Notes under the pieces: generated by a model
Told to the model about the DNA's origin: nothing
Seen by the model: the letters and a program-made list of their open reading frames with translations, nothing else
Database searches by the model: none
Part shown: piece after piece, positions 33,688 through 43,686 of the stretch
Numbering within the stretch: position 1 is the stretch's first letter
Layout: each line of letters opens with the position of its first letter
Assembly (NCBI RefSeq): GCF_026914185.1
Contig: NC_070560.1
Location: 5,075,501 to 5,139,500, forward strand
From: Puccinia triticina
Lineage: Eukaryota; Basidiomycota; Pucciniomycetes; Pucciniales; Pucciniaceae
Direction: 5' to 3'
Length of the DNA stretch: 64,000 nucleotides
Translations under genes and position numbers: made by a program

Positions 33688-35332
33688 TGTCAGCTGGCTA
33701 CTATGGCAGAGCCACCGTGACAAATAAAAATATAAAAAAATAGTTTCACATATGAAAGAGATATTATTACTCTTACCCATGTAAAACTACGCAAAAACAT
33801 TAAATACAAATATAATTAATTAATTACTCAGCTTTATGTAATTAATATGTAAAATATTATAGAAGATTCTTATTCTAAGGGTAAAATAACCTAGGGTAGC
33901 TCACTTACAAGTACCCTTAATTATTATCCCTTCCTTGTGTAAACTGACTTCAAAGTTTGCGCAAGTGCATCACGCCCCGTGTAGATGCACTTGTATGCAC
34001 ATATATATATAAGTACATATATTTACACCCATTTTTAGTGACGTAACTGAGGTGTTGTGTATAGTTTAAAAGATGGCTTTATTTGTTGCGTGGCGCACCC
34101 AAGCCCGCGTGCTCTGTTGCCTAGAGCTCAAGCCCGCGCTCCTAGTGTACATATATGCATAATGCATAAACTAGCCTGCAACCAAAGCGCTCAGGTTACC
34201 AGTAAGTAAGAATGGGCCAGAATACGCCCCAATAGCAATATTACATGTGTTATATGTCTTGTACACATGTAATTAATCACCAAACAAGATGTAATTACCA
34301 CGTCATCCAATATCAAAACATTCTAGATGGAAAAAGGCTCTTGCAACGTGCACAGGAGACACTAGAAAGCGCCCCAGCTTCTCCCAAGCCTCACTACGTG
34401 TAAATTACAACTGTAGTAAATATGTAGAAAGGACCAAATGAACTGGAGCACTTCATAAGCGCCTCCAGAACATGTATGTAGCACTGCTTGCACGTGTACA
34501 ATTGCACAGAAGCCAGTTCTAGTACCTTCTGTGGCACATTTCCACGGAAATGAGCGTCACAGAACCCCCAAACCAGCCCCCATGACGTGTAAGGCATGTG
34601 TAAAAACACGCAGAACCTCTGTAAAAGGCTCTTGGCAACCCTTTTATCCAAGCCCCAAGGTTCCACGACCCACAGCGCCTTCTAGCGCAACCAAATTGCC
34701 TCAGAATGCGCCCACAAGTGTCCCCATGTCCCCTGGGCGCCCCTGGAGGCCTGCCTAGGCTATATAAAGGGCCCTTTCTCCGCCCAAAAGGAGATTCCCC
34801 AGCTTTACATTACCTATCAGAATTTTACCCGCCTTCAACAGCCTCATTAGCCTGTGATTTGCCAGGTAAAATACCTACTTTCGTGATTTTTAGCCCCAAT
34901 TTCCGCCCTGAAGCTGTCCAGTAACCACCCTGCCCTCAAGATTACCACTTCTGAGCGCCTCCAAATGCCCAACTTCACGCCTGAAGAACCTCAAGTGCCC
35001 CTAGGGTCTTATACTAGTAAGTTTAAGCCCCTTCTCTTGAGATTCTCCGCTATTTCTTTCTGGGATTTGAAACACCCCTGTTTACAGGCCCCAGTTCTTC
35101 ATTCTAGAGGGATTAAACACCCCTGATTTATCAGGCCCCTCTTTAAAATTAATTATATTACGTCAAATTGGCCCAAATTGGCCCAAATTGCCTTATTCTT
35201 ACGCCATAATTCCCAACAATTACGTTGGAATTAACCCTTATAACCTTGTCTTAGAGTTTTATAACTCTAATCTTTTGCTTTGCACCACGCGTAGCTAGAA
35301 GGATAATATCCTTGGCATCACGTAGGCTGACA
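33688..35332 (+). repeat. 5' LTR of element A (1645 bp)
   Basis: Starts TGTCAGC and ends GCTGACA, a perfect inverted pair, and the next bases (attgggggtctggccggg) parallel those after the LTR of element B (attgggggcctcatcggg), marking the primer-binding region. The start is where the satellite array stops. There is no second LTR to compare with, so the left boundary rests on the TGTCAGC match and the array break. Confidence 0.7.
34761..34768 (+). promoter_or_regulatory. TATA box of LTR A
   Basis: tatataaag about 200 bp upstream of the ORF1 ATG (34965) and within the LTR. Transcription would start near 34790-34800, placing ORF1 exon 1 in the R/U5 part of the LTR. Confidence 0.55.
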
Positions 35333-36838
35333 ATTGGGGGTCTGGCCGGGAAATTTCCTTCAAATTCATTTGAAAGAAAGAGCCCTTATAAATCTTAAAT
35401 TTTTTTACGTCAGAAATTTCCAAAATATACTCTAAAAAATACATAAAAATATTCTCACTACTCTCTGAATTTTTTACGCCTTTAAAAACATTAAAACTGA
35501 CAAAAAATCATCTTTTTTCCTACTTTTTACGCCAAAACCAAACCAAAAACCCTAAAAATTCATCCAAGTTCGTCATTTTTTCTTTGTCAAAATTCATCTA
35601 AAATTACAAAATATATAAACAAAATTTCAAGTCTAATTTCTGACTTTTGTAGCGTGTTGTTTCCAGTGAATCTGCAGGAAAACGCGGAATTAATTCAGTA
35701 TTATCTGAAACTGCTGCGCCTGCGCAAAGAAGCCGAACTCCGCGACTACCAGCCCACCCCGTGGGAACAGCTCACCCGGGAGGAACAAATCATCCTCGCC
35801 GCCTACCACGCTCATATCCGCGAAGAAGAGGATCTTGACACCCTCCCCAAAATCCAACGATACCGCCGAGAAGCCAAAGCTAAGAAGAAAGCTTTCTACG
35901 ACGCCGAATACCGCGCCAAGAGTAAGTTTCTTCCATTTACATCTCACTCCCTCTCGATCTCCTTATCCACAAGATAGCTGACCGCTTTCTTATCCTCCTC
36001 ACAGTGTCTGCCAGCTTAGCCGCCGAGACTACCGTTGATAACCCAAATCCCGCCCCAACAGCTTCAACCGCTGACAAAACTCCCACTGGTAAGCTCCAAA
36101 CTTACCTTTCTACAACCTAAAATCAAACCTATTTGCTGACCATGGTTAATAAAAAAACTAGGTCCACTCGTCCCAAACTACGAGGGCCACTCCCACCTCC
36201 AACGCGAGCTCGCGGCGGCAAAGGAGCTGCAAGACCGGGTCAAGAGGATGCAGGTCACCACGATCGCCCGCAAGGACCCAATACGCGCTACCCCAGCTTC
36301 CACCCCGGCTCCCTCCGAGATCCCTCCTCCATCCAAGGACGGCCCTCGTCCAACCGAGCCGAACAAGTCCGCCATGGAGATCAACGAGATAGACGAGCTC
36401 TGCCCTACCTCATTGGCTCCTATCCGCACACGCCCCATCACCCCCGAGATCAAGACCTTATCGAAGGACGAGCAGATCGAACTCCGGGCCAAAGAGCACG
36501 TGAGTACTTGGAAGCAGTACCTAGCGATCGCAAACAACGGTGCGACAGCCGGGCTGCGAGCTTTGCTCACTACGGCTCAAGAGTCGCAGAAGGCTCTCCA
36601 GAAACTCATGGAGAACCACGAGATCGAAGCTCTCGTCAAAGGCTGGAACCCCTGGGAAGCCAAAAACTTCCACTTCCCAGCCCCGCCGAAGAAGACATTG
36701 ATGAAATTCAAGAAGATAGAAGGCGGCAAGAATCGCAGTTCGAGCTCGAGTTCGATCAACTTCGACGATCTGGCTCGGTGGAAGAGAACAACCGATCTGC
36801 TACAAATCGCAGCGAATCTCTACAAGAACATCGAGTAG
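34965..36838 (+). CDS. Element A ORF1, spliced protein of unknown function
   Basis: Exons 34965-35016, 35667-35921, 36005-36088 and 36162-36838 join without a frame break, every intron in phase 1 with consensus donors (GTAAGT, GTAAGT, GTAAGC) and acceptors (ttccag, ctcacag, aactag), giving 355 residues and TAG. Exon 1 lies in the LTR; intron 1 spans the LTR end and primer-binding region. The codons split by introns 1 and 2 are both A|TG. The protein has a charged helical N-terminal part (LKLLRLRKEAELRDY, RREAKAKKKAF), a predicted coiled coil (HLQRELAAAKELQDRVKRM) and a helical region (EHVSTWKQYLAIANNG). No zinc knuckle or enzyme motif is visible. Exon 4 overlaps gag-pol in the other frame. 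Confidence 0.7.
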
Positions 36839-41714: not shown

Positions 41715-42143
41715 ATTGGGGGCCTCATCGGGAAATATCCTCCTTTTCCATACTTCTAGACTGCTTAAAAAGCCAAGGACTGATCATCCTGAAAAAATTA
41801 AACAAAAAATTCTAAAAAATTCGAAAAAATTAAGAAAAAATTCTTTCTACACATACTACTAACGCTAAAAATCTCTCAAAATTATCTCAAATTGGTTCTA
41901 TATTGGTTAAATCCCTAACTGAACCCTTGAAAATTTTTTTTTACGTCTCTTCTACTCGTGAAAGTGCAGAATTGCGACTCCTCCGCGGGCCTTTTTATTC
42001 CTTCGTCCGACTTATCCTCCATTGATTCCCCTGTACCGTCGAATCAAGAAGAGATATCGAAAATCGGAGTACGCTCAAAAGTTTCCTCTCCTTCCGAAGC
42101 ATAATTGCCGATATTGACCGTAAATTTTTTCCTAACGCCGTAG

Positions 42144-43686
42144 GATAGCGCAGAGGAAGAAGACTACGAAAATAGGATTATAGCTACTCCGCAAAACGGT
42201 AACCTGATTAGTAGCACGTCGTGGACGCCCATTGCTACTACTACATACCCGAAAGTCCGTCGAAAAAAGGTCACCGCCGCTGTCAACATAGCCGACTGGA
42301 CTTCTGAACCTCCAGCTAAGACCAAAGCTAAGGAAAAGAAGAAGAAAATCTCTTCTACTACGCGCAAAAGCCGCAGACTTTCCGCTAAAGCTAGAGCTTC
42401 AGGTATTTTTATTACTTTTTTATTTCCTTACTTCTTTTATTCTGAATAAATAAAATATAAAAACACAAAAAACTAATAATAAATCCTACATAAAATGCCT
42501 CCCCATCTTAGAAATGGAAGAGACCTCTCAGCAGAGCAGAGACTCCGATACCAACTCAGCCCCGCCGCCGAGGAGAGGCTTCGAAGAGCTAGAATCAGCT
42601 TTGCCTCCGCTAGGAGAGGATTTTCTTCAATTCCCCCAGGAGGAAACCTTGCCGTCGGACACGGGAATCCCCCCAGCTCTCTACAATCCGAGGGAAACTT
42701 CCCTAGCTCTGGCGTCGAACAGGTCTACACCAGTGCCGAGACCAGTCGAGAGGGAACAAATGATCCCGCCAGACAGCTTCCAAACGACGAATCCGCAGCC
42801 CCCCCAGCCTACCAACCAAGAAGGCTTGAGGCCGGGGACTTCACCGGACTTGGCCCTTCATCCGTTTGCTCCGACCCAACCACCGGTCCAACAGCCGGCA
42901 GAAACGCACGCCCCAATGGAAATCATCCAGGAGGAGAGCGAGATAGCGAGTTTAGTCCACCTATTCAACGACCAATTCGATTTGTTCGTCAGGGCCAGGG
43001 AGTCCCAGAACGTGAGAACCATGCGGATGATTCTCTCTCAAGCCGCGACCACGCAGGACTTGATCAAGGAGTTAGTAGGGCGGGAGGATTCTTTGCGCCT
43101 ATGTCAGGAGTGGATTCCTCGCGCAGAATTGAACAAACTGGAGCGGTCTCTGTACAACAGACCTCCAACAGAGCAACCCCCGCCGATGTACGCTCCTCCA
43201 ACATCCACGACAGCTCCCCCTGCCACGATGAGCACGGTTTTGGCGCCGCACCCCAACCACAGGCTCCCAATAGCCTCTCCTACGCCGGCGCCTATGCAAC
43301 TCCATCAACCAGACCAGCACTCCCAGGCGCATACACATCAGCAAGGCCAGAGGGCCCCTCCGCCGCCGCCGCAGCAGCCAGTAGCTACACGCCCGCAAGC
43401 TTCTATACACCACGGTGGGAACCAAGCTCCGCGCCACCACCCGTATCAGCATCACAACAACGCGCAATGCCATCAACATCAACCCCATTATCAACAATGG
43501 GGCGGTCAAGCCGGGCACCAACAGCACCGAGCCTCTTCGCAAGGTTGGAGAGGATACGGGAGGAACAGGGATCAGGGCGTAGCGGAAACTCACAGGATTC
43601 TCAATGTAGGAGAGTTCCTGATGAGAATCACCAGCGGCAGGAGCCGCAGACGAGGGAGAGGGAGAGGCAGAGGAAATTCTCACTAA
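42144..43686 (+). CDS. Element B ORF1 (spliced; 5' exons incomplete)
   Basis: Exon 42144-42402 (after gccgtag) encodes a basic segment (PKVRRKKVTAAVN, KEKKKKISSTTRKSRR). The donor gtattt follows a phase-1 codon; acceptor ...catcttag leads to exon 42512-43686, in frame through ATG 42514 to TAA 43684. The exon has a helical core (EIASLVHLFNDQFDLFVRAR, LGRED-like and EWIPRAELNKLERSL) and then a His/Gln/Pro-rich tail ending in Arg-Gly repeats (RRRGRGRGRG), suggesting RNA binding. The exon structure, phase-1 last intron and -1 relation to gag-pol match element A. Exons further 5' could not be fixed; a start codon may lie in or near the LTR. Confidence 0.6.

Follow-up and report, generated by a model that had tools for sequence, protein, structure and literature searches.

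The stretch analysed here (the window) comprises 64,000 nucleotides (nt) of the forward strand of the rust fungus Puccinia triticina (contig NC_070560.1, positions 5,075,501 to 5,139,500), and all coordinates without a contig name refer to the window. It contains two elements, A and B, which are identified by their sequences as Ty3-type long terminal repeat (LTR) retrotransposons; the pol region of A is interrupted, ahead of integrase, by the inserted element B. In both elements the long gag-pol frame overlaps a second open reading frame, ORF1, which is predicted to be assembled from four exons. We propose, with a probability of roughly 80%, that both elements use splicing to swap start codons, such that gag-pol would be translated from unspliced RNA and ORF1 from spliced RNA. 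The features on which this proposal centres are the following.

36089..36161, + strand: last predicted ORF1 intron of element A, 73 nt, GTAAGC...AG, containing the gag-pol ATG
36142..36144, + strand: gag-pol start codon of element A, ATG in 8 of 8 aligned rows
36142..40842, + strand: gag-pol frame of element A, with CCHC, reverse transcriptase (RT) and RNase H, truncated by the insertion of element B
36162..36838, + strand: predicted ORF1 exon 4 of element A, overlapping gag-pol in a -1 relation
42403..42511, + strand: last predicted ORF1 intron of element B, 109 nt, containing the gag-pol ATG
42495..42497, + strand: gag-pol start codon of element B; 42495-42511 behaves as gag-pol coding sequence
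42495..49259, + strand: gag-pol frame of element B, with CCHC, RT, RNase H, integrase and a weak chromodomain match
42512..43686, + strand: predicted ORF1 exon 4 of element B, overlapping gag-pol in a -1 relation

A preliminary description of this DNA had placed the gag-pol ATG inside the last ORF1 intron in both elements (36142 within 36089-36161, 42495 within 42403-42511), and these positions hold. Further copies were sought in an 18-contig, 122.8 Mb assembly. For element A, the last intron was aligned in the window and seven further copies (8 rows); for element B, the alignment comprised the window and 27 further B-type copies (28 rows) out of 30 B-region loci fetched, leaving aside L031, which is the window itself, and L040 and L045, which overlap L043 and L044. 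The donor GT, the ATG and the acceptor AG are kept in 8/8 A rows and 28/28 B rows, and the interior of the intron varies with insertions and deletions in both. Branch-like letters (CTGAC) are present in six of the eight A rows, and one B row, L057, has a one-base deletion after the gag-pol ATG. Divergence by codon position was measured in B against 10 of the 27 copies, picked as the more divergent ones. The 5' part of the last intron diverges at.39/.37/.34 by position, and 42495-42511 shows 0/59, 0/60 and 15/50 changes by gag-pol codon position, i.e., at third positions only. In both elements, the gag-pol ATG adjoins the conserved 3' splice site.

Downstream of this intron, both frames are open over 677 bp in A and 1175 bp in B with gag-pol at -1 relative to ORF1, exactly as had been claimed; in A, the ORF1 frame runs until a stop at 36836-36838. 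We fixed one of the two proteins and redrew its codons, with 5000 draws each for the element's own usage, usage matched for GC content at third codon positions (GC3-matched) and uniform usage. With ORF1 fixed, 1, 1 and 0 of 5000 draws left gag-pol open in A (own, GC3-matched and uniform, in that order), and 0/5000 did so in B under each of the three usages. At ORF1 wobble sites where a T would create a gag-pol stop, T was found at 0/65 sites in B versus 62/243 elsewhere (p = 1e-7) and at 0/42 sites in A versus 25/125 elsewhere (p = 7e-4); the relatives are not independent, and each p-value stands for one copy. Among 22 rows examined in this way, the ones that combine a long ORF1 with an uninterrupted gag-pol frame behave alike, and the picture is less clear in interrupted or short rows (T at 1/8 sites in L038, 0/12 in L039, 0/9 in L047 and 5/42 in L067). 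On the strength of the recoding and of the avoidance of T, we rejected a chance overlap of the two frames; as judged from these patterns, gag-pol avoids stops more than chance would allow. Across the genome, with the count restricted to places at which most of the query was matched in each frame and with partial matches dropped, both frames were stop-free at 22 of 35 paired A-type places and 46 of 56 B-type places. At the remaining A-type and B-type places, respectively, gag-pol alone was open in 3 and 5, ORF1 alone in 8 and 2, and neither in 2 and 3. The B-type pairing left 15 gag-pol and 22 ORF1 rows without a partner, in part owing to ORF1 matches that fell into two pieces. Some doubly open pairs share only about 40-50% amino-acid identity, and many B-type gag-pol frames exceed 2200 amino acids.

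Some of our results on the overlap are less clear or weigh against the proposal. Recoding in the reverse direction gave a weaker result: with gag-pol fixed, ORF1 was open in 346, 3 and 6 of 5000 draws in A and in 140, 6 and 7 in B (own, GC3-matched, uniform). What argues for ORF1 is therefore its conservation pattern, the conserved introns and the relatives, not openness alone. The preliminary description had called for a look at synonymous sites in the overlap, and the outcome was divided. Over the B overlap as a whole, ORF1 wobble positions evolve fastest (.384 versus.219 and.212), as expected if ORF1 is conserved as a protein, and over the first 89 bases it is instead the gag-pol frame that is constrained (.16/.04/.22). 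These patterns indicate that ORF1 dominates most of the B overlap and gag-pol its start. In three of five B overlap segments, however, ORF1 wobble divergence reaches.40-.45 with little amino-acid constraint on gag-pol, and much of the N-terminal stretch of gag-pol may thus be merely a tolerated open linker. One could go further and suppose that only the spliced ORF1 is real in the 5' part, that the openness of gag-pol in this part reflects chance or base composition, and that Gag starts downstream of the overlap. The dominance of ORF1, the wobble-like evolution of gag-pol first positions in much of the overlap and the existence of copies with gag-pol stops would all agree with this. It would not account for the near absence of open recodings (0-1 of 5000), for the lack of T at the 65 and 42 stop-prone wobble sites, for an intronic ATG followed by third-position-only changes, or for a lineage whose gag frame is open where ORF1 has six stops, and we consider it very unlikely.

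Relatives in which one frame is freely interrupted, which the preliminary description had said would count against the layout, do exist in part, although most pairs are doubly open. At eight A places, stops interrupt gag-pol and ORF1 is open, and among the seven A overlap copies fetched, L063, L064 and L067 have gag-pol stops. These three have lost 13, 19 and 16 of 55-57 CpG sites to TG or CA, as compared to 1-4 in the other four copies. The losses fit CpG decay in the rust, for which this frame geometry often spares ORF1. Yet L061 has one gag-pol stop with little CpG loss (3/57). Conversely, a B-type lineage has six ORF1 stops at each of four places (G000:C8:1748238, C12:1767856, C2:3357158 and C16:4537269); gag rows could be paired with three of these, and gag was open in 3/3, with open reading frames of 956-1122 amino acids. 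This lineage is perhaps a non-autonomous family that lost ORF1, and its open gag suggests that elements can lose ORF1, perhaps if they obtain it in trans.

The upstream part of ORF1 is predicted to consist of the following features; a slash within a motif marks an exon junction or splice site, and divergences in B are by codon position against the same 10 relatives.

34761..35016, + strand: TATA-like stretch (34761) and ORF1 exon 1 of element A, a leader exon in the LTR that ends in A; contains TATATAAA
35017..35666, + strand: ORF1 intron 1 of element A, 650 nt, containing the primer-binding site; its removal makes A/TG
35335..35350, + strand: TGGGGG... directly after the LTR of element A, which we take to be the primer-binding site
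35667..35921, + strand: ORF1 exon 2 of element A, with a coding pattern, matched in protein P0022 and P. graminis proteins
35922..36004, + strand: ORF1 intron 2 of element A, 83 nt
36005..36088, + strand: ORF1 exon 3 of element A, whose joins fit P0022
41275..41964, + strand: ORF1 intron 1 of element B, 690 nt, with its donor in the LTR and spanning the primer-binding site; its removal makes A/TG
41717..41732, + strand: primer-binding-site-like TGGGGGCCTCATCGGG of element B, little changed among aligned copies
41965..42068, + strand: ORF1 exon 2 of element B, divergence.12/.11/.25
42069..42143, + strand: ORF1 intron 2 of element B, 75 nt, GT in 27/28 rows and AG in 28/28, divergence.26/.22/.17, no coding pattern
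42144..42402, + strand: ORF1 exon 3 of element B, divergence.10/.08/.34; GN.ISS..WTPIAT also occurs in P. graminis P0018 and P0020

In element A, comparison with one copy over 35690-35923 gave 4/72, 16/72 and 6/72 changes at positions 0, 1 and 2 modulo 3, with the third codon position fastest, and 11/25, 13/26 and 14/25 changes, without a codon pattern, in the intron 2 region (35924-36004). A single continuous B exon from 41965 to 42402 was considered and rejected: two in-frame stops lie between 42069 and 42143, where a 75-nt intron with conserved ends fits, and by eye the same stop letters are present in most other B rows shown.

At the first junction of element A, exon 1 ends in ...ACTA before GTAAGT and exon 2 begins with TGAATCTG after CCAG, so that splicing would give ATG AAT CTG in the ORF1 frame. 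Similarly, exon 1 of B ends in ...TTGACA before GTAAGTA and exon 2 begins with TGCAGAAT after GAAAG, which would give ATG CAG AAT. The A donor, ACTA/GTAAGT, is present in the window and in 4/4 other copies read, and the A-type acceptor motif of intron 1 was found exactly at 27 places in the genome versus 0 for a reversed control. The B acceptor, AAAGTGCAG, is present in 28/28 rows, and the B donor motif, searched together with the A before it, occurs 24 times in 23 of the 30 loci. An in-frame TAG lies shortly upstream of the B donor in 23 of these 24 instances (3 codons upstream in B itself), and translation in B can therefore not pass through exon 1. Most likely, then, the ORF1 start codon exists only after splicing, as A/UG across intron 1. 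The earlier assignment of the ORF1 start to the ATG at 34965 is probably wrong and was rejected: 116 bases of leader were read in each of four other A copies, and all four have CTG at this position. The exon 2/3 junction of A (35921/36005) likewise gives an in-frame A/TG, and P. graminis proteins have a methionine there as well (E[KR]MST).

A splice-made start codon faces some difficulties of its own. One of the 24 B donor motifs has GC rather than GT, 7 of the 30 loci lack the motif, and the B acceptor that makes the AUG (GAAAG/TG) sits 5 nt ahead of a more canonical CAG. ORF1 could start at an internal AUG instead, at 42514 in B, and at 36248 or the exon 2/3 junction in A, and in exon 1 of A the frame stays open further upstream, making a non-AUG start there possible. 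Taken further, splicing might not control the choice at all: the AUGs at 42495 and 42514 in B are 19 nt apart, and leaky scanning on one unspliced RNA could give both proteins, in which case the upstream exons would matter little. Indeed, ATG 42514 directly follows the acceptor in B and its relatives, and several P. triticina proteins start at this methionine (M[EA]ETSQQ). Such dual initiation would leave unexplained the coding patterns of exons 2 and 3 of B, which also appear joined in P. graminis proteins, and the retention of splice sites around a diverging intron interior. Nor does it transfer readily to A, where the first ORF1-frame ATG past the last intron is 36248, inside the overlap, and exons 2-3 are conserved to P. 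graminis. We therefore regard it as unlikely compared with a splicing-controlled switch.

In both elements, the predicted leader of the unspliced RNA, about 1.2-1.4 kb long, shows a strong depletion of AUG. In 2000 dinucleotide shuffles, none had as few ATGs as either leader: A has 0 in 34968-36141 (shuffle mean 10.1) and B has 0 in 41103-42494 (mean 12.3). Just upstream of the ATG-free stretch of B there are ATGs at 41092 and 41100. Transcription of A presumably starts near 34790, and a leader counted from there has one ATG, at 34965 (mean 12.0; still 0/2000 as low). The depletion is not absolute in other copies, which speaks against the proposal: 18 of the 28 B rows have at least one extra ATG in about 870 nt upstream (none in 10 rows, one in 15, two in 1 and five in 2, the upstream parts of the last two being possibly misaligned), and 346 bases from the exon 2/3 region of A copy L072 (= L063) contain one ATG.

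Protein searches with exon 4 of B and the predicted spliced ORF1s returned solely matches that were Puccinia-named or unnamed. ORF1 of element B matches PTTG_30722, a deposited protein of P. triticina, with 98% identity along 61% of its length, which makes the host P. triticina or a very close relative, and P0022 (PTTG_30274, P. triticina, 99% identical) fits exons 2-4 joined as predicted in A. Among the P. graminis proteins, P0028-P0033 agree with the A-type joins between exons 2 and 3 and between exons 3 and 4, as do P0018 and P0020 with the B-type join between exons 3 and 4; all of these joins were read from protein alignments, not from the underlying DNA. At the intron 1 junction, P0026 (P. 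triticina) reads ...GSYT/MNSQEN and P0032 (P. graminis) reads MKTL/MNLQEN, each with a methionine at the junction before N(S/L)QEN. A caveat is that the deposited proteins may be predictions made without RNA support. By eye, P0009, P0019 and P0021 seem to cross from the ORF1 frame into the gag-pol frame within the overlap, and P0021 also returns; these are either predictor artefacts or further splice forms. They bring up one more arrangement, in which alternative acceptors would splice the ORF1 exons into the gag-pol frame, so that some Gag-Pol would carry them at its N-terminus. In both elements, the exon preceding the last intron shares the gag-pol register, with nothing but intronic stops between the two, which would suit this arrangement as the frame-switching proteins do. 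However, the conserved acceptor gives the ORF1 frame in all 28 B and 8 A rows, and an AUG-depleted leader would be unnecessary, and we give this arrangement hardly any credence.

The predicted ORF1 proteins are 338 (A) and 512 (B) amino acids long. They are mostly disordered as predicted and have lysine-rich stretches, with an RG-rich tail in B, a composition that suggests a nuclear RNA-binding protein. None of five ORF1 proteins reached the cut-off of any Pfam family, a search of solved structures gave nine weak matches to A-type ORF1 (the best at E 0.15) and no match to B-type ORF1, and one scan of viral contigs with an A-type ORF1 alignment gave no relative. AlphaFold models had a mean pLDDT (predicted local distance difference test score) of 50.8 for B ORF1 and 57.3 for the A-type P0022 and were mostly of low confidence, with a small predicted helical core of like order in both. 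Profile comparison shows only slight similarity between A and B ORF1 (probability 15.8, E 0.0016, 44 columns).

The classification of the elements rests mainly on B, whose LTRs are located as follows.

40843..41714, + strand: 5' LTR of element B, matching 49297-50168
49297..50168, + strand: 3' LTR of element B, paired with 40843-41714

The two LTRs are 99.77% identical (875-nt alignment), and TAGAT flanks element B on both sides (40838-40842 and 50169-50173), at an insertion site inside the gag-pol frame of A. B shows the RT, RNase H, integrase order of Ty3-type elements (Metaviridae): within 44034-49259, the matches are RVT_1 at 812-967, RNase H at 1058-1164, Integrase_H2C2 at 1290-1347 and rve at 1363-1463, the last at 32.5 bits, slightly below its cut-off of 32.6. 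LTRs, a target-site duplication and a primer-binding site are likewise found in B, and of A the 5' part alone is seen. The gag-pol frame of this B copy has a stop at 44031-44033; several other copies are open for 2254-2258 amino acids. A 2.1-kb stretch of A pol has at least 23 further near-full-length matches in the genome at 95-98% identity, plus shorter and more distant ones, and the segment (about 699 amino acids) is stop-free in 20 of 23 copies, with one stop in the other 3. Outside the window, 534 bases at G000:C3:5157497-5158030 are 100% identical to the 5' LTR region of A. This is perhaps the 3' LTR of A displaced by nested insertions, which would imply a young insertion. Elsewhere in the window, 29564-33580 contains satellite-like repeats with a 174-nt unit spacing in several blocks, and an array of about 33-nt units lies at 30817-31577.

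In summary, a splicing switch between gag-pol and ORF1 is supported by conserved splice sites, a diverging intron, third-position-only changes, stop avoidance and the deposited proteins of two rust species. In unspliced genomic RNA, the first AUG reached by scanning would be that of gag-pol, which lies where the last ORF1 intron nears its 3' end, and a single long frame would then yield Gag-Pol. Removal of intron 1 would bring the final A of the leader exon next to the UG that opens the following exon, creating the ORF1 AUG and discarding the primer-binding site. Since intron 1 spans that site in both elements, the spliced RNA would not be primed normally. Removal of the last intron would delete the gag-pol AUG and shift the same downstream sequence into the ORF1 frame, with ORF1 made as a separate protein from spliced RNA. 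That these RNAs exist and are translated so, where transcription starts, and that the junction AUG is the one used, is what we infer from the DNA.

Splicing separates a regulatory protein from Gag-Pol in retroviruses as well, where HIV-type Rev and other proteins are made from fully spliced RNA and reading frames overlap. These proteins have ordinary AUG start codons, unlike the predicted junction AUG of ORF1. The yeast gene GCR1 reportedly uses an intronic start codon, in a host gene, in the same reading frame and with no overlapping gene. Its spliced and unspliced transcripts give different isoforms (PMC7826247). In the plant LTR elements EVADE and Ogre, functional introns give rise to subgenomic RNA; EVADE splicing yields a short GAG, and in the available text of the source neither is described with an overlapping second-frame protein, unlike A and B (PMC12786077). 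The closest system is Cer1, a Gypsy/Ty3-type element of C. elegans, whose unspliced RNA gives the polyprotein and whose five-exon spliced mRNA gives a separate novel protein, CERV, which is needed for export of unspliced Cer1 RNA and beside which Rev is mentioned (PMC10309623). Cer1 is thus a Ty3-group element with a spliced mRNA whose protein lies partly in a second frame. For A and B, such a product in a non-polyprotein frame is a prediction with which the geometry and the deposited proteins agree. In CERV, however, only one exon, the fourth, departs from the polyprotein frame, whereas A and B have about 0.7-1.2 kb open in two frames. The gag-pol ATG of A and B is intronic and their ORF1 ATG probably junction-assembled, whereas CERV has a predicted initiator ATG, and the accessible part of that source mentions neither 'overlap' nor 'start codon' (PMC10309623).

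The preliminary description knew of no Ty3 element with this layout. Given Cer1, this no longer stands for a spliced protein partly in a second frame (PMC10309623); what we did not find described is start codons reciprocally made and deleted by splicing on an AUG-depleted leader. The titles and abstract openings searched contain no description of this layout, and subscription papers lay mostly outside the search, so this is not proof of absence. An export function has been shown for CERV only (PMC10309623). By analogy, the likeliest role for ORF1, which we put forward only tentatively, would be that of an early regulatory protein that helps its own unspliced RNA leave the nucleus, like CERV or Rev. 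We lean slightly towards a broader view, namely a reciprocal start-codon switch in which the same splicing assembles the AUG of an accessory protein and deletes that of Gag-Pol, on an AUG-depleted leader and with up to 1.2 kb shared in two frames, kept across several P. triticina Ty3 families and, by deposited proteins, P. graminis. Because ORF1 would come only from spliced and Gag-Pol only from unspliced RNA, an ORF1 favouring unspliced RNA would give the element its own early-to-late feedback, resembling that of complex retroviruses but having arisen independently in fungi.

For annotation, the finding is a warning that some hypothetical proteins of rusts would be retrotransposon ORF1s and that a splice-made start codon is easily overlooked. 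How retroelements separate genomic RNA, polyprotein and regulatory protein would become testable here by plain read mapping. If the proposal is true, fungal Ty3 elements evolved retrovirus-like control, with splicing choosing between overlapping genes by making and removing start codons.

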